A stretch of 60,328 nt of DNA from positions 1 through 60,328 of the forward strand of contig JALHMR010000028.1 of assembly GCA_022843945.1 (NCBI GenBank), in the 5' to 3' direction. This document shows, one piece after another, positions 17,109 to 41,380 of this stretch. The notes under the pieces were generated by a model. That model was not told where the DNA came from, searched no databases, and saw only the letters and a list, made by a program, of their open reading frames with translations. The position numbers and the translations under genes are program-made. The stretch is from Rhodospirillaceae bacterium. GTDB lineage: Bacteria; Pseudomonadota; Alphaproteobacteria; CACIAM-22H2. Position 1 is the stretch's first letter, and each line of letters starts with the position of its first letter.

Positions 17109-18251
17109 CTACCACCCGTTCACGCGGTCCCATTCGTCGACGATCTCGCTGCCGCCGTCGGTGACGTAGTAGCGGTCGTACATCGCTGCGGTCATGCAGA
17201 CGTGGTTGGGCAGCACGCGCAGGCGGCTGCCGATGGGAAAGCGGTCGAAGGGCAGCTTGTTGATGGCGTCGAGCGCCTTGGCGTGGCCGATCAGGCCGTG
17301 CTCCTGGTGCACGTCGAGCACGGCGAGGCCGGGCAGGGGCACCTTGCCGCCGGGCAGGCAGACCAGGCCGTAGCCGGTGCCCGGCTGGTTCTTGTTGGCG
17401 CCGGTGTCCTTGGACAGCGCCAGGCCACCGGCATCGATCAGCAGGTGGTTGCGCTCGCGGTGATGGCCGTCGACCGAGGCGAGGACCGAGACGGCGATGT
17501 CCTCCACGGCGCAGGACTCGATACCGAGCTGGAAGAGGTCGAAGAAGACGAAGTTGCCGGGCCGCATCTCGGTGACGCCGTCGAGGCGGTCTGCGTGGAT
17601 CGCGGTCGGTGTCGAGCCGACGCTGACGATCTCGCAAGGATAGCCCGCGTCGCGCAGGCGCTGCGCGGCCTTGACGGCGCCGGCGCGCTCGGCCTCGGCG
17701 ATGGCCTTGATCTCTTCGATGCTGTGGGCGTTGTAGGAGTGGCCCGCGTGAGTCAGCACGCCGGCGAGGGCCGCCCCCTTGCCGTTGAGCGCGGCGGCGA
17801 TAGGTAGGAGATCGGCCGACCCGGGCGCGATACCCGCGCGACCAAGACCGGTATCGATCTTGATCAGGATGCGGAAGGTGACACCAAGCTCAAGGCCCCG
17901 CGCCTCGACGGTGCGGGCCACACCCTCGTTGTCGGTGATCAGCTTGAGATCGGTACCGCCGGCGACCAGGCGCGCGACATTTTCGAGTTTCGCCGGGACA
18001 ATCGGCACGGCGTAGGTGATGTCGTGGAACCCGTGCTTTGCGAAATACGTTGCCTCGGCGAGGGTGGATACCGTGATGGGTCCCTTGCCGCCGGTGGCCA
18101 GTTCCGCCACCCGCGCCGATTTCGCGGTCTTCATATGGGGCCGCAGGACCACACCCAGCTCGCGGGCCCGGCCCTGCAGCCGGGCGACGTTCCTGGCAAG
18201 GCGCGAGCGGTCGAGGATCAGCGAGGGAGTAGGGAGATCATCCAGGCGCAT
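17109..18251 (-). CDS. D-threonine aldolase / D-serine dehydratase-like PLP enzyme (DSD1 family)
   Basis: 380 residues from the ATG at 18251, which directly precedes the conserved opening DDLPTPSLILDRSRL. An upstream in-frame ATG at 18323 adds a weak leader. This is an alanine-racemase N-terminal fold type III PLP enzyme: the Schiff-base lysine lies in RPHMKTAKS near residue 42. Strands with IKIDTGLGRAG, LTHAGHSYNAH and IVSVGSTPTA follow. The C-terminal domain has the PNHVCMTA motif whose His and Cys bind the divalent metal (zinc or manganese) in this family. Expected chemistry is D-threonine or D-3-hydroxyamino-acid cleavage, or D-serine dehydration; sequence alone does not decide. It is divergent from egtD. 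Confidence 0.88.
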   Translation of the reverse strand: MRLDDLPTPSLILDRSRLARNVARLQGRARELGVVLRPHMKTAKSARVAELATGGKGPITVSTLAEATYFAKHGFHDITYAVPIVPAKLENVARLVAGGTDLKLITDNEGVARTVEARGLELGVTFRILIKIDTGLGRAGIAPGSADLLPIAAALNGKGAALAGVLTHAGHSYNAHSIEEIKAIAEAERAGAVKAAQRLRDAGYPCEIVSVGSTPTAIHADRLDGVTEMRPGNFVFFDLFQLGIESCAVEDIAVSVLASVDGHHRERNHLLIDAGGLALSKDTGANKNQPGTGYGLVCLPGGKVPLPGLAVLDVHQEHGLIGHAKALDAINKLPFDRFPIGSRLRVLPNHVCMTAAMYDRYYVTDGGSEIVDEWDRVNGW

Positions 18252-18382
18252 TGAAGGTCCGTACAAGATAGTCAGTTCAGAAAAGAGACTGGGGTCCGCG
18301 AAAGATACCGACGATAGCATCACGAGGAATTGAGGTCGCGGGTCACGGGGTGCTTATGGCAAAGTCACAGCAGAGGGAACGC

Positions 18383-19351
18383 ATGTCCGAGAACGTCGCC
18401 CGCCTTGTCGATCTGGCTCCGGAAACCGTGTCGTTCCGCGACGCCGTGCTGCACGGGCTGTCGCGCACGCCCAAATCCATTCCCCCGATGTATTTCTACG
18501 ACGAGCCGGGCGCCCGGTTGTTCGAGGAGATCTGCCGGCTGCCGGAGTACTACCCGACGCGGGCCGAGACGGCGATCCTCAAGACGAACGCCGCCGACAT
18601 CGCCGCGCGGATCGGACCCGAGGCGCACCTGATCGAGTACGGCAGCGGCGCCACCGAGAAAGTGCGCCCGCTGCTCGATGCGTTGCAGGACCCGGTGGCC
18701 TACACGCCGGTCGATATCTCGGCCGAGCAGTTGGCCGCCGCGGCGTCGGACCTTGCCGCGTCCTATCCTGACATCGAGGTGACGGGAATCATCGCCGACT
18801 ACTCGCGTCCGTTCACCCTACCGCCGCCGCGCCGCCGTCCGGCGCGTACCCGGGCCGCGCTGTTCCTGGGCTCGACCATCGGCAATTTCGGGCCCGCGGA
18901 GGCGCTGGCCTTCCTGCAGCAGGCGGCCCGGCGCCTGAGCGATGGCGGACTTCTGCTCATCGGGGCCGACCTGCGCAAGGACCCCAACCGCCTGCACGCG
19001 GCCTACAACGACAGCGCTGGAGTGACGGCTCGCTTCAACCTGAACCTGCTGACCCGTATCAATCGCGAGCTCGACGGCAATTTCGACCTGGCGGCGTTCG
19101 ACCACTACGCCTTCTACGATCCCGTCCCGGGGCGCATCGAGATGCACCTGGTCAGCCGCCGGACCCAGCGCGTCAGCGTCGCCGGCAAGACGTTCAGCTT
19201 CGGCGAGGGCGAGAGCCTGCACACCGAGAACTCCTACAAGTTCACGGTCGAGGGCTTCCGCACCCTGGCGCGCCGCGCCGGCTTCACGCCCGAAGCCGTG
19301 TGGCTCGACGACGACAACCTCTTCAGCCTTCATTTGCTGCGCGCGACCTGA
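18383..19351 (+). CDS. egtD: L-histidine N-alpha-methyltransferase EgtD
   Basis: 322 residues from the ATG at 18383, preferred because a GAGGGA lies just upstream; ATGs at 18350 and 18356 are alternatives. EgtD trimethylates histidine to hercynine using three SAM. Family signatures: PPMYFYDEPGARLFEEICRL, EYYPTRAE, the SAM loop LIEYGSGATEKVRPLLD near residue 90, PVDISAEQL, LGSTIGNF, and near the C-terminus TENSYKFTVEGF. Its stop (TGA) is immediately followed by the ATG of the SelD fusion, so the two are translationally coupled. Hercynine is the shared precursor of ergothioneine and selenoneine, and the neighbours point to the latter. Confidence 0.95.
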   Translation: MSENVARLVDLAPETVSFRDAVLHGLSRTPKSIPPMYFYDEPGARLFEEICRLPEYYPTRAETAILKTNAADIAARIGPEAHLIEYGSGATEKVRPLLDALQDPVAYTPVDISAEQLAAAASDLAASYPDIEVTGIIADYSRPFTLPPPRRRPARTRAALFLGSTIGNFGPAEALAFLQQAARRLSDGGLLLIGADLRKDPNRLHAAYNDSAGVTARFNLNLLTRINRELDGNFDLAAFDHYAFYDPVPGRIEMHLVSRRTQRVSVAGKTFSFGEGESLHTENSYKFTVEGFRTLARRAGFTPEAVWLDDDNLFSLHLLRAT

Positions 19352-21613
19352 ATGACGCCGGGGGGCGTGGCGATCGTCAAGGACCTGGTGCTGGTCGGCG
19401 GCGGCCATGCCCATGTCGCGGTGCTGCGCAGTTTCGGCATGAAGCCGATGCCCGGCGTGCGCCTCACCCTGATCGCCCGTGACATCGAGACGCCGTATTC
19501 TGGCATGTTGCCGGGCTTCATCGCCGGCCACTACCGCTTCGCGGAATGCCATATCGATCTCGGGCCGCTCGCCGCCTTCGCCGGGGCGCGGCTCTACCAC
19601 GACGAGGCGATCGGCATCGATCGCGCCAAGCGGCACGTCCTGTGCGCCGGCAGGCCGCCGGTGCCGTACGACGTGCTGTCGCTCGATATCGGCTCGCGCC
19701 CGCGCCAGCACGACGTGCCCGGCAGCGCCGAGCATACGACACCGGTGAAACCGATCGACGGCTTTGCCGAGCGCTGGGCGGAGATCGTGGCGCGCGTCAC
19801 CGCCGACAACCGTCCCTTGCGCATCGGGGTGATCGGGGGTGGAGCGGGCGGGGTCGAGCTCACACTGGCCATCCATCACCGCCTGCGCGCGCTGCTGCGC
19901 CAAGCGGGGCAGGACCCGGACCGGCTGACCTTCGTGCTGGTCACGGCGCACGAGCTGCTGCCGACGCATAACCAGAAGGTCGGCCGGATCTTCGCCCGCG
20001 TACTGGCCGAGCGCGGCGTCGAGGTTCATACCAAGTCGCCGGTGCGTTCGGTGGAGGCGGGGACGGTGATCGCCAGCAAGCGCATCGCGCTCGACGAGAT
20101 CCTGTGGGTGACCCAGGCCGGAGCGGCCCAGTGGATCCGGGAGTCCGGCTTCGATTGCGACGACGGTGGCTTCGTGAAGGTGCACGACACGCTGCAGACG
20201 GTCAGCGACCCGGCCGTGTTCGCCGCCGGCGATGTGGCGGCGGTCGAGACGCATCCGCGGCCCAAGGCCGGCGTCTTCGCCGTGCGCCAGGGCCCGCCGC
20301 TCACTGACAATCTCCGCCGCGCGCTCGCCGGCCAGGCGCCGCGTCCATTCACGCCGCAGAGCAAGTTCCTGTCGCTGATCTCGACCGGCGACAAATATGC
20401 GGTCGCTTCGCGCGGCGGCTGGGCGGCCGAGGCCGGCTGGCTGTGGACGCTCAAGGACTGGATCGACCGGCGCTTCATGGACAAGTACTCGGACCTGCCG
20501 GTGATGCGCACGGCGCCGGTGGCGGCCGTGCCCTCTGCCGGCGTGGCCGACGCGGCGGCGCTGCAGGAGCTGTCGACCATCGCCATGCGTTGCGGCGGCT
20601 GCGGCGCCAAGGTCGGCAGCACGGTGCTGTCGCGGGTGATGAGCCGTCTCGCGGTGATCCAGCGCGACGACGTGGTCATCGGCCTGAACGCGCCCGACGA
20701 CGCGGCCATCGTCCGGCCGGTCCCAGGCAAGGCGTTGATCCACACGGTCGACTACTTCCGCGCCTTCATCGACGACCCGTATGTCTTCGGCCGCATCGCC
20801 GCCAATCACAGCCTCGGCGACGTCTACGCCATGGGCGGCGAGCCGCAGACCGCGCTGGCCATCGCCACCGTGCCCTACGGTATCGAGAGCAAGGTCGAGG
20901 ACGACCTGTTCCAGATGATGTCCGGCGCCTTGACGGTGCTCAATGAGGCGGGCGCGGCGCTGGTCGGCGGCCACACCAGCGAGGGCGCGGAGCTGGCGCT
21001 GGGCTTCGCGGTGACCGGCGCGATCGCCGAGAACGAGGCACTGCGCAAAGGCGGGCTGATGCCCGGCCAGGCGCTGATCCTGACCAAGCCGCTCGGCACC
21101 GGCACGCTGTTCGCGGCCGCCATGCGCCGGCAGGCGCGCGGCATCTGGATCGATGAGGCTCTGGCCTCGATGCAGGTGACGGCGCGCGAGGCGGCGACCT
21201 GTCTGCGGCGTTTCGGCGCCACGGCCTGCACTGACGTCACCGGGTTCGGGTTGCTCGGGCATCTGGTGGAGATGACCAAGCCGTCCGGCGTCGAGGCGGA
21301 GATCCGGCTGGGGGCCTTGCCGCTGCTGGCCGGCGCCGTCGACACGGTGCGCGCCGGCATCTTCAGCTCGCTGCAGCCGCAGAACCTGCGCCTGCGCCGG
21401 GCCATCCGCGACGGCGAGGCGCTGAAGGACGATCCGCGTTACGCGCTGCTCTTCGATCCGCAGACGGCCGGCGGTCTGCTGGCCGGCGTGCCCGAGGCGG
21501 CGGCGGCCGAGTGCGTGGCCGAGCTGCGCCGCCTCGGCTACATCGCGGCGGCGATCATCGGCCGCGTTTTGCCTTCGGGCGACGCGGCCGAGCCGATCCG
21601 CGTTGTGGCCTGA
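19352..21613 (+). CDS. senC: Selenide,water dikinase fused to an NADH-dehydrogenase-like flavoprotein domain (SenC/SelD type)
   Basis: 753 residues in two parts. Residues 1 to about 395 form a two-dinucleotide-binding flavoprotein: LVLVGGGHAHVAVL at the N-terminus, a second IGVIGGGAGGVELTLA near 160, and AVFAAGDVAAVETHPRPKAG near 293. Residues about 405-753 are a full SelD: GGCGAKVG with Cys417 and Lys420 (same spacing as Cys17/Lys20 of E. coli SelD), LNAPDDAAIV, VDYFRAFIDDPY, and TDVTGFGLLGH. SelD makes selenophosphate from selenide and ATP. The flavoprotein domain might deliver reduced selenium, an inference from the fusion. The ATG follows directly on the egtD stop, and the 3' end overlaps the convergent senB gene by 59 nt. 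The nucleophile is Cys; no selenocysteine UGA is seen. Confidence 0.93.
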   Translation: MTPGGVAIVKDLVLVGGGHAHVAVLRSFGMKPMPGVRLTLIARDIETPYSGMLPGFIAGHYRFAECHIDLGPLAAFAGARLYHDEAIGIDRAKRHVLCAGRPPVPYDVLSLDIGSRPRQHDVPGSAEHTTPVKPIDGFAERWAEIVARVTADNRPLRIGVIGGGAGGVELTLAIHHRLRALLRQAGQDPDRLTFVLVTAHELLPTHNQKVGRIFARVLAERGVEVHTKSPVRSVEAGTVIASKRIALDEILWVTQAGAAQWIRESGFDCDDGGFVKVHDTLQTVSDPAVFAAGDVAAVETHPRPKAGVFAVRQGPPLTDNLRRALAGQAPRPFTPQSKFLSLISTGDKYAVASRGGWAAEAGWLWTLKDWIDRRFMDKYSDLPVMRTAPVAAVPSAGVADAAALQELSTIAMRCGGCGAKVGSTVLSRVMSRLAVIQRDDVVIGLNAPDDAAIVRPVPGKALIHTVDYFRAFIDDPYVFGRIAANHSLGDVYAMGGEPQTALAIATVPYGIESKVEDDLFQMMSGALTVLNEAGAALVGGHTSEGAELALGFAVTGAIAENEALRKGGLMPGQALILTKPLGTGTLFAAAMRRQARGIWIDEALASMQVTAREAATCLRRFGATACTDVTGFGLLGHLVEMTKPSGVEAEIRLGALPLLAGAVDTVRAGIFSSLQPQNLRLRRAIRDGEALKDDPRYALLFDPQTAGGLLAGVPEAAAAECVAELRRLGYIAAAIIGRVLPSGDAAEPIRVVA

Positions 21614-22562
21614 CTTCGACCAGCAATTTTTTCCACGCCTCTTTCTCGCGCGCCGGCTCGAAGAGCTTGGCCTCTTTGGCCAACGCCCGACGCAGGCGAG
21701 TGACGAATTTCGGATCCGTTTCGACCCGGCGCATCAGCCGGGCGAGGGCGGCCGTGTTGCCGACGGGGAAGTAGCCGGGATAGTCGGCGCCCAGCAGGCC
21801 GACATTGCCATCCATCCGCGAGGCGAGGATCGGCACGCCGGCGACGGCGGCCTCGGAGACGACGTTGGCGCCACCTTCGCTAAGCGAGGAAATCACCATG
21901 GCGTGGCTGCGGCGCAGGAGGGCCTCGACGCCGGCCCGCGGCACGTCGTCGCGCCATTGATAGCGCGGATTGTTCGCCATCTCGGCCTTGGCGCGCTCGG
22001 CCCAATCAGGCGTGTAGGCGCGGCCGATCTGCTCGATGCGGATGCGCGAGGCGGCGGGCAGGGCGCGGGCGGCCTCGGCGGCGCGCAGCGGGTCCTTCAC
22101 GTCGCGCAGATGGCCAATGACCGAGATGATCACCGCGCGCGGGTCCGGCTGCCACGGCTTCGCCGGCCTGGCCGCGGACTGATAGATCAGCCGCAGCTTG
22201 CCGCGCTGGGCCTTCGGTACTTTCTTCCAGGCCAGGCTGTTGATCGCCACCAGCCGGTCGGCCAGTTCCAGCGAGCGCCGGGTCGGCTGGGGATCGCTGT
22301 CGATGTAGTCGTAGATATCCGTGCCGCTGAGCTGGATGATCACCGGGCGCTGGCCGAGATAGCGGCTCTTGAAGCGCTCGATCGCCGCGGCGCTGCGCCA
22401 GGCATGGATGGCGACCATCAGGTCGGCCGAGGCGCCGTCGTACTCGGTGGCGACCTCGACCTCGTGGCCGAGCCTCGCAAGAATACCGGCCCAGCGCTGG
22501 GCCGCGACCCGGTTGCCGGTCCGTGAACTCGGGCCCGCGGGCGTGATAAGAATGATCTTCAT
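21555..22562 (-). CDS. senB: Selenosugar synthase-like glycosyltransferase SenB
   Basis: 335 residues of GT-B fold. It opens with IILITPAGPSSRTGNRVAA, characteristic of the SenB-type glycosyltransferase family, then HAWRSAAAIERF near 75, a GTDIYDY loop near 95, and VISVIGHLRDVKDP near 165. The C-terminal nucleotide-sugar site reads SSLSEGGANVVSEAAVAGVPILASRMDGNVGLLG. SenB joins selenophosphate to a UDP-sugar to give a selenosugar. The tail is a basic Arg/Lys/Pro-rich extension. The ATG at 22562 overlaps the ATG of senA in a CATG palindrome, and the 3' end runs 59 nt into the SelD fusion gene. A generic glycosyltransferase is the alternative, but the surrounding three genes make SenB much more likely. 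Confidence 0.9.
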   Translation of the reverse strand: MKIILITPAGPSSRTGNRVAAQRWAGILARLGHEVEVATEYDGASADLMVAIHAWRSAAAIERFKSRYLGQRPVIIQLSGTDIYDYIDSDPQPTRRSLELADRLVAINSLAWKKVPKAQRGKLRLIYQSAARPAKPWQPDPRAVIISVIGHLRDVKDPLRAAEAARALPAASRIRIEQIGRAYTPDWAERAKAEMANNPRYQWRDDVPRAGVEALLRRSHAMVISSLSEGGANVVSEAAVAGVPILASRMDGNVGLLGADYPGYFPVGNTAALARLMRRVETDPKFVTRLRRALAKEAKLFEPAREKEAWKKLLVEVRPQRGSARPRRPKAKRGR

Positions 22563-23874
22563 GGACGGCCCCGTTTTACGCCCCACCAGCGGCGCCAGCG
22601 CCGAAACCCTGGCCGCGCAGCTGCGTGAAGTCCGCCGGCGGTTGAACCGGTTGGTCGACGACCTCGCGCCGGACCAGTTGATGGGGCGCAAACTCGAGAT
22701 CGTCAATCCCATCCTCTGGGAGATCGGCCATATCGGCTGGTTCCATGAGCGCTGGACCCTGCGCCAGGCGCGCGGCGAGGCGCCCTTGCGCGCCGACGGC
22801 GATGCGCTGTGGGATTCGAGCGCCGTGCCGCACGCCACGCGCTGGACGCTGAAGCTGCCGGACCGCGAGGGCACGGCGGCCTATCTCGGCGAGGTCATGA
22901 GCCGCCAGCTCGAGCGGCTGAGCCGGAGCAACCTGTCGGACGACGTGCGCTACTTCTACGACCTCTGCATCCGCCACGAGGACATGCATGTCGAGGCCCT
23001 GACCTACACGCGCCAGACCCTGTCCTATGCGCCGCCCGAGCTCGGCGACCTGGCGCCAGAAGGGGCCGGCAGCTTCCCGGGCGATGCCGAGGTGCCGGGC
23101 GGCAGGTGGTGGCTGGGATCGACAACCAGCGAGGGCTTCATCTTCGACAACGAGAAATGGGCGCATCCGGTTGAACTGGCACCCTTTCGCATCGCCCTGG
23201 CGCCGGTGACCAATCTCGACTTCGCCGAGTTCGTCGCCGATGACGGCTACGCGCGGCAGGAGCTGTGGAGCGCGGGTGGCTGGGCCTGGCGCGAGGCGAC
23301 CGGGGCGCAGCGCCCGGTCTACTGGGTCGAGGAAGGCGGGCAGTATGCCTGCCGGCGCTATGACATGGTCGAGGCCCTGCTGCCCGACGCGCCGGTGATG
23401 TTCGTCAACTACTGGGAGGCCGAGGCCTGGTGCCGCTGGGCCAAGCGCCGGCTGCCCACGGAAGCGGAATGGGAGGCAGCCGCCCTGGGCGAGCCGGGCG
23501 AGGGCGGCCGGCTGGCGCTGGGCAAGCGGGCCTGGCCGTGGGGCGACCAGCCGCCGGCGCGCTTCCGCGCCAACACGGATTTCACCTACGACGCGCCGCT
23601 CGACGTGGCCGCCTGCTCGGCGGGCGACAGCGCCTTCGGCTGCCGGCAGATGATCGGCAATGTCTGGGAGTGGACGGCGTCCGACTTCCTGCCCTTCGCC
23701 GGGTTCAGCGCCGACCCCTACGAGGACTACTCGCAGCCCTGGTTCGGCACGCGCAAGGTGCTGCGCGGCGGCTGCTTCGCCAGCTCGGCGCGTATCGCCC
23801 GGCCGGGCTATCGCAATTTCTTCACACCCGACCGGCGCGACGTATTCGCCGGTTTCCGGACCTGTGCGCTATAA
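22561..23874 (+). CDS. senA: EgtB-like selenoneine synthase SenA
   Basis: 437 residues: an N-terminal DinB-like helical domain and a C-terminal formylglycine-generating-enzyme-like (FGE-sulfatase) domain, as in EgtB. Candidate iron ligands are His57 in EIGHIGWFHER and His139/His143 in RHEDMHVEAL. The C-terminal half shows LAPVTNLDFAEFV, WCRWAKRRLPTEAEWEAAA, GNVWEWTASDF and VLRGGCFASS. SenA oxidatively couples a selenosugar to hercynine; EgtB does the sulfur equivalent with glutamylcysteine. The surrounding senB, senC and egtD favour SenA, but residues separating the two activities were not identified. No in-frame start lies between 22561 and the conserved region, so the head-to-head overlap with senB appears real; an ATG at 22552 is also in frame. 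Confidence 0.9.
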   Translation: MDGPVLRPTSGASAETLAAQLREVRRRLNRLVDDLAPDQLMGRKLEIVNPILWEIGHIGWFHERWTLRQARGEAPLRADGDALWDSSAVPHATRWTLKLPDREGTAAYLGEVMSRQLERLSRSNLSDDVRYFYDLCIRHEDMHVEALTYTRQTLSYAPPELGDLAPEGAGSFPGDAEVPGGRWWLGSTTSEGFIFDNEKWAHPVELAPFRIALAPVTNLDFAEFVADDGYARQELWSAGGWAWREATGAQRPVYWVEEGGQYACRRYDMVEALLPDAPVMFVNYWEAEAWCRWAKRRLPTEAEWEAAALGEPGEGGRLALGKRAWPWGDQPPARFRANTDFTYDAPLDVAACSAGDSAFGCRQMIGNVWEWTASDFLPFAGFSADPYEDYSQPWFGTRKVLRGGCFASSARIARPGYRNFFTPDRRDVFAGFRTCAL

Positions 23875-23906
23875 GACTGCATTCACCAAGGGAGACGCCT
23901 TCGTCC

Positions 23907-24617
23907 ATGACCGACACGCTGAGCGACGCCGAGCGCAACGGGCTTCTGGCCCTCGATACGCCGACCATCTGCAACGCCCTCGAGCTGACCGCGCCCGAGC
24001 GCCGGGCCAAGGGCTTCACCGTGCGGCCGCTGGTCGCCTGCTTTCCGCAGATGAAGCCGGTGCTGGCCTATGCCCGCACCGCGACCATCCGCTCCAAGGA
24101 GCCGAGCCCGCTGGCCAAGGACAAGGCGAAGGCCCAGCGCCTGGCCTATTTCGAGTACATCGAGAAGGGCGGGCCACGGCCCTCGATCTCCATCATGCAG
24201 GACATCGACGGCGACGATCGCGGCTTCGGCGCCTTCTGGGGCGAGGTGCAGACCAACGTCCACAAGTCCCTGGGCTGCGTCGGCACGGTGACCGACGGCT
24301 GCGTGCGCGACATCGACATGATGGCCGACGGCTTCTTCGTGCTCGCCGGCTCGATCGCCCCCTCGCATGCCTGGGTGCACCTGGTCGATTTCGGCGGCAC
24401 GGTGAGCGTCGCCGGCATGGTGGTCAGCTCGGGCGACCTGATCCACGCCGACCGTCACGGCGCGGTGATCATCCCGGCCGGCAGCGCCTCAAAGGTGATC
24501 GAGGCCGCGGCGCTGATCGCGCGCAAGGAGGCCGTGATCCTCAGCGCCGCCAAGCAGCCGGGCTTCACCGTCGAGGTGCTCAAGCGGGCGATGGGCGAGG
24601 CCGACGACATCCACTGA
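23907..24617 (+). CDS. RraA family protein (HMG/CHA aldolase-like)
   Basis: 236 residues. The conserved RraA-like motif GTVTDGCVRDIDMM near residue 130 carries the Arg-Asp pair used for substrate and metal binding in 4-hydroxy-4-methyl-2-oxoglutarate aldolases. The C-terminal block GMVVSSGDLIHADRHGAVIIP is also standard. The fold is that of the RNase E inhibitor RraA, but plant-type and environmental homologues of this kind are usually class II aldolases or decarboxylases. It starts 33 nt after senA behind a GGGAGA site, so it may be co-transcribed. No known step of selenoneine synthesis needs it. The 3' end overlaps a convergent gene by 129 nt. Confidence 0.85.
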   Translation: MTDTLSDAERNGLLALDTPTICNALELTAPERRAKGFTVRPLVACFPQMKPVLAYARTATIRSKEPSPLAKDKAKAQRLAYFEYIEKGGPRPSISIMQDIDGDDRGFGAFWGEVQTNVHKSLGCVGTVTDGCVRDIDMMADGFFVLAGSIAPSHAWVHLVDFGGTVSVAGMVVSSGDLIHADRHGAVIIPAGSASKVIEAAALIARKEAVILSAAKQPGFTVEVLKRAMGEADDIH

Positions 24618-33297: not shown

Positions 33298-39636
<6,339 letters not shown>

Positions 39637-39676: not shown

Positions 39677-41380
39677 ATGAAGGCAGAGAGCAACAGCGTC
39701 AACATCCTGCTGGTCGATGACCAGGTCGGCAAGCTGCTGAGCTACGAGGCGATTCTCACCGAGCTGGGCGAGAATCTTCTCAAGGCGAGCTCGGCCAAGG
39801 AGGCGCTCGAGCATCTGCTGAAGCACGACGATGTCGCGGTAGCGCTCGTCGATGTCAGCATGCCGGAGCTCGACGGCTTCGAGCTGGCATCCATGATCCG
39901 CAACCATCCGCGCTTCCAGACCACGGCGATCATCTTCGTCTCGGCCATCGCTCTCACCGACATCGACCGGGTGAAGGGCTATGAGCACGGCGCGGTCGAC
40001 TACATTCCGGTGCCCGTGGTGCCGGAGGTATTGCGCGCCAAGGTCCGGGTGTTCGTCGATCTCTACCGCAAGACGCGCCAGCTCGAGCGCCTGAATGCTG
40101 AGCTCGAGCGCCGCGTCAGCGAACGAACGGCGGAGCTGGCCAAGGCCAATGCGGGCCTGGCCCAGGCCAATGCCGACCTCGAGCAGCGCGTCGAGGAACG
40201 GACACGCGAGCGCGAGATGGCGCTGGCCCAGGTCCATGAGATGCAGAAGCTCGAGAGCCTCGGCCATCTCACCGGCGGCATCGCCCACGACTTCAACAAC
40301 GTGCTGATGGCGGTGTTGGGCAATCTCGACCTGGTCGAGGCGCGGCTGAGCGATGACCGGCTGCGGCGGCTGGTGCAGAACGCCCGCCGGGCCGGCCAGC
40401 GCGGCGCCAAGCTGACCGAACAGCTGCTGGCCTATGCGCGCAAACAGCGCCTGGTTCCGGAAGCCACCGATCTCAACCGGCTGCTGGCGGCCGAGCCGGT
40501 CGACATCCTGCGCCGGGCGCTGGGCGGCACGATCGAGGTGCGCACGCGCCTGGCCAACGATTTGTGGATGGCGCTGGTCGATCCCGCGCAGATCGATTCC
40601 GTCATCCTCAACCTCGCGATCAACGCCCGCGACGCCATGCCGTCGGGTGGCACCCTGACCATCGAAACGGCGAACGTGCCCGGCGACGACACGACCCGGC
40701 CGGCGGACCTGGCGCCGCGCGACTACGTGCTGATTGCCGTGACCGATACCGGCACCGGCATGCCGCCAGCCGTTGCGGCGCGCGCCTTCGAGCCGTTCTT
40801 CTCGACCAAGGAGCCGGGCAAGGGCTCCGGGCTGGGCCTGAGCCAGGTTCTCGGTACGGCGCAGCAGCTCGGCGGCGGCGTGCGCCTGAGGACGGCGCCG
40901 GACAAGGGGACACGCGTCGAGGTCTACCTGCCACGCACCGACGGCAAGCCGCGCCTGGCGGCGGTCGAGCGACCGCGGGCCGCGACGGCCACGGGCTCAG
41001 CCACGGTGCTGGTGGTGGACGATCAGGAGGAAGTCCGGGAGATATCGGTCGCCCATGTCGAGACCCTGGGCTATCGCGCGATCCCCGCATCGAGCGGCAA
41101 GGGGGCGCTCGACATCCTGAAGGACATGCCGAATATCGACATCCTGTTCGCCGACTTCGCCATGCCCGGCATGTCGGGACTGGATCTGGCGAGAAACGTC
41201 CGGCAGCTGCGGCCGCGGCTGCCGGTCATCCTGGTGACCGGCTATGCCGACATCGGCAACACAGCCGATCTTGACGGCATGCAGCTGCTCAAGAAGCCCT
41301 ACCGGCAGGATGACCTGGCCGCCGCGATTCAGCGGGCGCTCGGGGACGGCCCCCCGGTAGCGGCCGCAGCCTCGGCCTAA
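39677..41380 (+). CDS. REC-HisKA-HATPase-REC hybrid histidine kinase
   Basis: 567 residues. The N-terminal receiver (ILLVDDQVGKLLSYEAIL, phospho-Asp in LVDVSMPELDG) is followed by a heptad-rich linker (about 125-185). The kinase core has GGIAHDFNNVL with His204, then NLAINARDAMPSGG, TDTGTGMP and GSGLGLSQVLG. A C-terminal receiver has VLVVDDQEEVREI and phospho-Asp in LFADFAMPGMSG. No membrane helix or output domain is seen. It starts 40 nt after the poly-HAMP kinase stop, so the two proteins are probably made together. Its N-terminal receiver could take phosphate from the larger kinase, which is inference. Confidence 0.92.
   Translation: MKAESNSVNILLVDDQVGKLLSYEAILTELGENLLKASSAKEALEHLLKHDDVAVALVDVSMPELDGFELASMIRNHPRFQTTAIIFVSAIALTDIDRVKGYEHGAVDYIPVPVVPEVLRAKVRVFVDLYRKTRQLERLNAELERRVSERTAELAKANAGLAQANADLEQRVEERTREREMALAQVHEMQKLESLGHLTGGIAHDFNNVLMAVLGNLDLVEARLSDDRLRRLVQNARRAGQRGAKLTEQLLAYARKQRLVPEATDLNRLLAAEPVDILRRALGGTIEVRTRLANDLWMALVDPAQIDSVILNLAINARDAMPSGGTLTIETANVPGDDTTRPADLAPRDYVLIAVTDTGTGMPPAVAARAFEPFFSTKEPGKGSGLGLSQVLGTAQQLGGGVRLRTAPDKGTRVEVYLPRTDGKPRLAAVERPRAATATGSATVLVVDDQEEVREISVAHVETLGYRAIPASSGKGALDILKDMPNIDILFADFAMPGMSGLDLARNVRQLRPRLPVILVTGYADIGNTADLDGMQLLKKPYRQDDLAAAIQRALGDGPPVAAAASA

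Follow-up and report, generated by a model that had tools for sequence, protein, structure and literature searches.

Does a 5.5-kb gene cluster in an alphaproteobacterial genome encode the synthesis of selenoneine, a selenium antioxidant of marine food chains that is known from seafood? The stretch in question, hereafter the window, comprises all 60,328 nucleotides (positions 1 to 60,328, forward strand) of contig JALHMR010000028.1 in the assembly GCA_022843945.1 of a Rhodospirillaceae bacterium, which is 96.66% complete. A first-pass annotation had described egtD, senC as a fusion containing SelD, senB and senA with their key motifs at 18383-23874, and this is borne out by the open reading frames, the model scores and the active-site residues; the span fits as well, provided that egtD starts at the ATG at 18383. 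All four open reading frames are intact in 18350-23874 (Table 1), and gene identities were scored against the curated NCBIfam cut-offs (bits/cut-off throughout). Judged from the identity of the genes, their intact active-site residues, phylogeny and co-occurrence, with the reactions taken from published work on Variovorax paradoxus, the cluster is a genuine and complete candidate locus belonging to an already known pathway, and very probably makes selenoneine.

Table 1. Features of the candidate selenoneine locus; positions are those of the window and scores are in bits/cut-off.
Feature	Position	Strand	Evidence
egtD, histidine N-alpha-methyltransferase (hercynine synthesis)	18350 or 18383..19351	+	TIGR03438 404.8/290.9; PF10017
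senC, Ndh-SelD fusion, 753 amino acids	19352..21613	+	TIGR03169 495.8/310; TIGR00476 292.3/125
senC, NDH-2-like FAD/NAD(P) oxidoreductase domain	~19382-20488	+	
senC, SelD (selenophosphate synthetase) domain	~20582-21502	+	
CGGC (CxxC) selenium loop of the SelD domain, Cys414 and Cys417	20591..20602	+	both Cys in 57/57 aligned fusions
senB, selenosugar synthase (Se-glycosyltransferase), 335 amino acids	21555..22562	-	TIGR04348 384/300; solved SenB chains 195-196 bits
senA, EgtB-like iron enzyme, predicted selenoneine synthase, 437 amino acids	22561..23874	+	NF041186 491.7/420; tree; pocket letters Y/N/F
CATG palindrome containing the start codons of senB (-) and senA (+)	22560..22563		
GATAAGAAT, antisense of senB codons 4-6, weak ribosome-binding-like stretch ahead of senA	22545..22553	+	

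One alternative is that the locus makes ergothioneine and that SenA is a divergent EgtB with a thiol donor. The EgtB-like domains of the protein and the neighbouring egtD would fit such a role, and it scored 318 bits with the EgtB model TIGR03440. This is below the EgtB cut-off of 360, whereas the cut-off of the SenA model NF041186 was passed (491.7/420) in the comparison of hidden Markov models that the first-pass annotation had proposed. The iron-ligand histidines 57, 139 and 143 of SenA align with those of solved EgtB, at columns that we take to be the EgtB ligand positions, and these columns hold His in 104, 103 and 103 of 104 sequences; the SenA proteins of loci L147, L150 and L156 had been removed from this set by a length filter. 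The phylogeny that had likewise been proposed was inferred from 53 sequences, 46 of the 104 plus 7 added EgtB sequences, and left out, among others, L095/L118 (genome G581), whose branch is very long, and L122, an additional SenA-like copy from G126 with F instead of Y. EgtB-II (100/100) and EgtB-I (98/92) stood apart in this tree, with the window SenA outside both, and SenA and OvsA together formed a 97/97 clade; the EgtB-I label of L240 and L241 is based on their place beside PDB 4x8b in the same tree and on an adjacent EgtD. Although the window SenA is of the same superfamily as EgtB-II (PDB 6qki, 6o6l), it is the other copy in this genome, on contig C14, that belongs to EgtB-II (580.6/360; 533 bits to the solved EgtB-II chains). 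SenB moreover adjoins the window SenA. The EgtB reading of SenA was rejected on the cut-off and on its place outside both EgtB clades, and we consider ergothioneine a very improbable product of this locus. The EgtB-II on another contig also undoes one argument of the first-pass annotation, in which the absence of nearby EgtA, EgtC and EgtE genes was taken to indicate selenium rather than sulfur chemistry.

A second alternative concerns OvsA, which acts on histidine and makes ovoselenol. The window enzyme could be an OvsA-type selenoxide synthase that uses histidine and yields ovoselenol or a relative, in which case EgtD would serve only the EgtB-II encoded elsewhere. It has the same iron-ligand histidines as OvsA (PDB 8u41, 8ux5), and OvsA-bearing genomes also carry SenB and Ndh-SelD. 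Furthermore, three proteins that are 60-62% identical to OvsA, from genomes G554, G521 and G461 (loci L115-L117), pass the NCBIfam SenA cut-off with 435-440 bits, and the SenA model alone therefore does not settle the product. The genes for these three proteins are unlinked to the SenB and Ndh-SelD genes of their genomes, and automatic annotation would probably call them selenoneine synthases.

Three pocket columns separate the two enzymes in this set, reading M, Q and A in PDB OvsA 8u41 and in L115-L117, but Y, N and F in the window and in solved SenA. Of the 104 sequences, 97 have Y in the first column, 4 have M, 2 have F and 1 has a gap; in the second, N occurs 91 times, T 7 times, Q 4 times and Y once, with one gap; and in the third, F occurs 63 times, Y 34 times, A 5 times and W once, again with one gap. 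Y and N are also found in the EgtB rows, so that these letters count as evidence against OvsA but not against EgtB. Chain 8ux5 is printed as OvsA yet reads Y and NF at these places, from which we infer that it is an engineered OvsA variant. In the 53-sequence tree, OvsA formed a clade of its own (100/100), separate from the V. paradoxus-type SenA (99/96) and from a 98/88 clade of 31 SenA that included the window. A second SenA-like enzyme of the SenB genome G126 (L242, 5960-7300, minus strand) has F at the position of the pocket Tyr and reads NFE rather than NFF or NFY; it fell inside the window's SenA type in an earlier quick tree.

The distribution of EgtD provides a further line of evidence. 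EgtD was present in 23 of 25 SenB genomes, over the cut-off in 22 and running off a contig end in G005; the two genomes without it were G521, one of the OvsA genomes, and G597, where SenA was not found. The search of G521 (L244; an OvsA-like protein together with SenB) gave no EgtD match at E 1e-20, as expected if OvsA needs no hercynine. The SenA model was applied to 20 SenB genomes, and in 12 of these SenA was the sole full-length member of its enzyme family (G033, G135, G146, G208, G231, G301, G320, G326, G378, G397, G748 and G581), and all 12 encoded EgtD, although some of them are incomplete assemblies (77-100% complete), four have a second, partial match of 93-103 bits and the SenA of G581 was counted despite scoring below the cut-off (379/420). 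Hercynine is thus left without another visible consumer in these EgtB-less genomes. The retention of EgtD there, its absence from G521 and the position of egtD directly against senC in the window all argue against an OvsA-type enzyme. The pocket letters, the tree and the co-occurrence with EgtD together favour hercynine as the substrate of SenA, and on the same three grounds the OvsA reading was rejected. The selenoneine assignment of the first-pass annotation stands on these grounds and on the models, although the rival that had to be tested was OvsA and not only EgtB.

The egtD gene of the window is the only PF10017 match in the genome. Because an EgtB-II is encoded elsewhere and there is a single EgtD, the genome would probably make ergothioneine too, with both branches drawing on the same pool of hercynine. 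A plain selD is grouped with selB, selA, fdhE and the selenocysteine tRNA on contig C3, which indicates that selenocysteine is used in this genome and has a separate SelD of its own. No SelU was found in the genome.

The senB gene product passed the SenB model, as the first-pass annotation had led one to expect. Residues N20, H58, R61, T85, R155, K158 (here K156), E231 and E239 of the V. paradoxus enzyme are kept, T83 is replaced by Ser and the EGGAHV motif reads EGGANV. K158 is described as critical, N20, T23 and E231 as determinants of the sugar donor and EGGAHV as a motif in PMC10891094. Within the order, 2 of 23 genomes have SenB over the cut-off, as do 14 of 385 in a draw from the class and 13 of 398 in a draw from the phylum; SenB is uncommon, and its presence in the window is more than chance. 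The sen cluster of V. paradoxus DSM 30034 (senA, senB, senC) shares with the window the grouping of SenA, SenB and a selenophosphate synthetase, as well as the key residues of SenB except T23 and T83. Sequence identity to five V. paradoxus-type loci is 36-42% for SenA and 34-40% for SenB, and the window SenA has about 50 residues that solved SenA lacks. The window cluster differs further in that SenC is fused to a flavoprotein and egtD lies inside the cluster.

Among solved structures, SenC is related to selenide, water dikinases and to NADH dehydrogenase-like proteins. Cys417 and Lys420 of its SelD domain align with Cys17 and Lys20 of chain 3u0o, which we take to be Escherichia coli SelD. The N-terminal domain, whose top match among solved structures is 4nwz at 56 bits, resembles NADH dehydrogenase-like flavoproteins and itself contains no invariant cysteine. 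Three cysteines, C414, C417 and C721, were invariant in all 57 aligned fusions from SenB loci. At the position of C414, plain SelDs have Gly in all 8 that align there, the ninth (L199) having a gap, and at that of C721 (window ~21512-21514) Cys was absent from 9 of 9 plain SelDs and present in 6 of 17 fusions from SenB-negative genomes.

In the class draw of 385, fused Ndh-SelD, defined as a TIGR03169 match over the cut-off in an open frame of at least 640 amino acids, was found in 13 of the 14 genomes with SenB and in 46 of the other 371 (Fisher p 9e-11, not corrected for relatedness). The remaining SenB genome, G088, had no TIGR03169 match. For these counts the SelD half was inspected in the best 30 of 65 loci, and the two class draws of 385 were taken to be the same genomes, in line with the handles that they share. 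A quick tree was made of 43 fusions, on which the 26 that are linked to SenB required 2 label changes (mean of 13.5 for shuffled labels; 0 of 500 as low) and grouped with 2 SenB-negative fusions in a set of 28 members with a support of 94; the sequences were the best 30 of 65 matches plus 13 loci chosen by us, which may flatter the clustering. Fusions linked to SenB thus group together, yet Ndh-SelD at large also occurs outside sen genomes, and both its many carriers without SenB (46 of 59 in the class draw) and the case of G088 speak against a dedicated role.

Fusions of this kind are known (PMC2398784; TIGR03169 plus TIGR00476), and those described in that paper have the same domain order and CxxC loop as the window senC. 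They were reported there to make up about 40% of the Cys-type SelD in ocean metagenomes, with a function called not fully clear in 2008. Genomes with extended selenophosphate synthetase genes also had selenoproteins and the selenocysteine machinery, and selenophosphate synthesis was predicted to be retained, according to PMC4561486. Neither paper, in the portions available, links the fusion to selenoneine, whereas that of the window sits in a sen locus. In the literature searched, which left most subscription journals outside, we found no statement linking selenoneine to the Ndh-SelD fusion or to alphaproteobacterial genomes. A V. paradoxus-type SenA is combined with Ndh-SelD in L098 (G732), and the window's type of SenA with a plain SelD in L201 (Methylobacterium sp. 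BTF04); from these combinations the two types of SenC appear to be exchangeable.

Several observations weigh against the selenoneine reading. The top solved match of the window SenA is OvsA (8ux5, 306 bits; 8u41, 296 bits), above SenA (8ryz, 243.5 bits; 8k5i, 243.1 bits) and EgtB 4x8b (236 bits). The pocket letters are not fixed in SenA, seven gammaproteobacterial SenA rows having T in the second column and 34 rows having Y in the third. The branch that joins the window's clade to the V. paradoxus-type SenA rather than to OvsA is weak (83/33), and the quick tree mentioned above, which held very long rows, put OvsA beside the window's type and did not recover this type as monophyletic (79 of the 104 rows, 23 being thinned by hand and 2, L207 and L125, dropped as gap or odd rows). 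None of the assayed enzymes known to us belongs to the SenA clade of the window. The second SelD, encoded with selA, selB and the selenocysteine tRNA, means that gene content does not settle the source of the selenophosphate, and 46 of the 59 genomes with fused Ndh-SelD in the class draw had no SenB. Finally, the sugar-donor residue T23 of V. paradoxus SenB is Ala here, and the sugar may differ.

The top match to OvsA and the weak joining of the SenA clades count in favour of an OvsA-type enzyme; set against the pocket letters, the separate OvsA clade and the pattern of EgtD, we judge synthesis of ovoselenol or a relative at this locus to be quite unlikely. The change of T23 in SenB, the EGGANV motif and the separation of the window's SenA clade from the solved one would in turn agree with a selenoneine-like product that arises through a different sugar intermediate or with a different regiochemistry, such as 5-selenohercynine, and is made by a diverged pair of SenA and SenB. 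There is only a slim chance of this, as the three pocket letters match those of solved SenA, the selenosugar serves SenA as its selenium source (PMC9814287), and characterised SenB enzymes accept several UDP-sugars (PMC10891094).

For selenoneine, the pathway would run as follows. EgtD would trimethylate histidine to hercynine, and SenC would form selenophosphate from selenide and ATP, while the fused NDH-2-like flavin domain probably passes electrons from NAD(P)H and keeps the CGGC loop, or the selenium bound to it, in a reduced state. SenB would combine selenium with a UDP-sugar to give the selenosugar. With iron and O2, SenA would then transfer selenium onto C2 of the hercynine imidazole, and breakdown of the adduct would release selenoneine. 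Hercynine from this EgtD probably also reaches the EgtB-II encoded elsewhere, by which ergothioneine would be made as well.

To compare the arrangement of these genes, named genomes were scanned with the SenB alignment and the best 80 loci were considered; many contigs end nearby, and the linkage counts are lower bounds. SenA was present in 69 of the 80 loci, and senB and senA were adjacent and divergent in 68 of these 69, so that the reversed senB, which the first-pass annotation had regarded as an unexpected layout, is not odd. A complete Ndh-SelD was found in at least 42 of the 80, and was directly convergent with senB in at least 32 of those; 5 more had an NDH match without a SelD match, 2 had a plain SelD and at least 10 had EgtD. 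For eight SenB genomes with no SenA in the stretch that was fetched, SenA or OvsA was found elsewhere in seven, the eighth being G597. There, senB lies with a plain SelD (L086, 6568-8585) in a genome in which neither SenA nor EgtD was found, perhaps indicative of another use of the selenosugar. The window's clade comprises 26 loci, mostly from Reyranella-like alphaproteobacteria and including the same-family genome G005. Among the 26 listed, all four genes occur together only in the window and in L072 (G005), where egtD is cut by the contig end. Three pairs of loci, L172/L073, L205/L080 and L196/L075, are apparently the same records, and the locus counts for layout, start overlap, Leu5 and fusion cysteines are to this extent not independent.

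The genes of the window are tightly packed. There are three candidate starts for egtD (GTG at 18350, ATG at 18356 and ATG at 18383), and the ATG of senC at 19352 directly follows the egtD stop codon with no gap. Transcribed convergently, senC and senB overlap by 59 bases at the 3' end of senC, and the divergent senB and senA share one CATG between their start codons. Longer frames are listed for senB (439 amino acids) and senA (501 amino acids), but since both begin well upstream of the model matches, the starts that give 335 and 437 amino acids fit better. A promoter scan of 18200-24000 found none, terminator-like sites in the same segment occurred at the chance rate (2 versus a mean of 2.3), and an Rfam scan returned a tRNA and nothing else.

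The shared start is a feature of the window's clade. Start codons overlapping by two bases as CATG were found in 21 of 85 divergent pairs scored, all 21 of them in this clade, with starts chosen by rule, L095 being a non-adjacent pair and L147 of the clade being unscored. L131, also of the clade, has an ATG at that place although a later start was chosen by the script; larger overlaps occur in L135, L137 and L149, and L207, outside the clade, has a one-base overlap. Leu5 of SenB is encoded by CTT in all 25 clade members that have this residue, while elsewhere in the same genes CTT accounts for 8.8% of the codons for leucine; of the other loci, 57 have Leu at this position and 12 of them use CTT. 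Read from the opposite strand, the codon is part of GATAAGGAC in 16 of the 26 clade members, which places AAGGA eight bases before the senA ATG and resembles a ribosome-binding site. The window has GATAAGAAT at that place, a weaker match than GATAAGGAC, and an in-frame ATG at 22552 is an alternative possible start of senA. Synonymous conservation was elevated over the first 12 codons of SenB (26 rows; p 0.0097 by permutation, which is not strict as the rows are related) and not in the first 12 codons of SenA (25 related rows, p 0.55). Taken from the nucleotide pattern, part of the senB start region may double as the translation signal of senA.

Outside the cluster, a pyridoxal phosphate-type enzyme with alanine-racemase-like and D-serine-dehydratase-like domains is encoded at 17109-18323 on the minus strand, divergent from egtD and separated from it by a short gap. 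Further downstream, a hybrid histidine kinase of 2112 amino acids (33298-39636, plus strand) contains many HAMP repeats, GAF, HisKA and HATPase domains and three receiver stretches, and is followed by a second kinase/receiver protein at 39677-41380.

New in this analysis are the clustering of SenB-linked Ndh-SelD fusions, the double start in CATG, the passing of OvsA-like proteins by the SenA model and the location of a single EgtD in the sen locus rather than beside EgtB. A practical pitfall follows for annotation, in that the public SenA model also accepts OvsA-like proteins; in the set read here, the three pocket letters separate them. The locus is a clear candidate for a selenoneine producer in the window's SenA clade, and it ties the Ndh-SelD fusion to the synthesis of selenium-containing small molecules. 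It is possible, though we put this forward only tentatively, that the distinct Ndh-SelD clade combines selenium reduction driven by NAD(P)H with selenophosphate synthesis in one self-contained enzyme, which is dedicated to the small selenium molecules selenoneine and ovoselenol and acts beside a separate SelD for selenocysteine in the same cell. If so, a fusion that is common in the ocean would gain a role, and marine bacteria would be indicated as a main source of the selenoneine in seafood.

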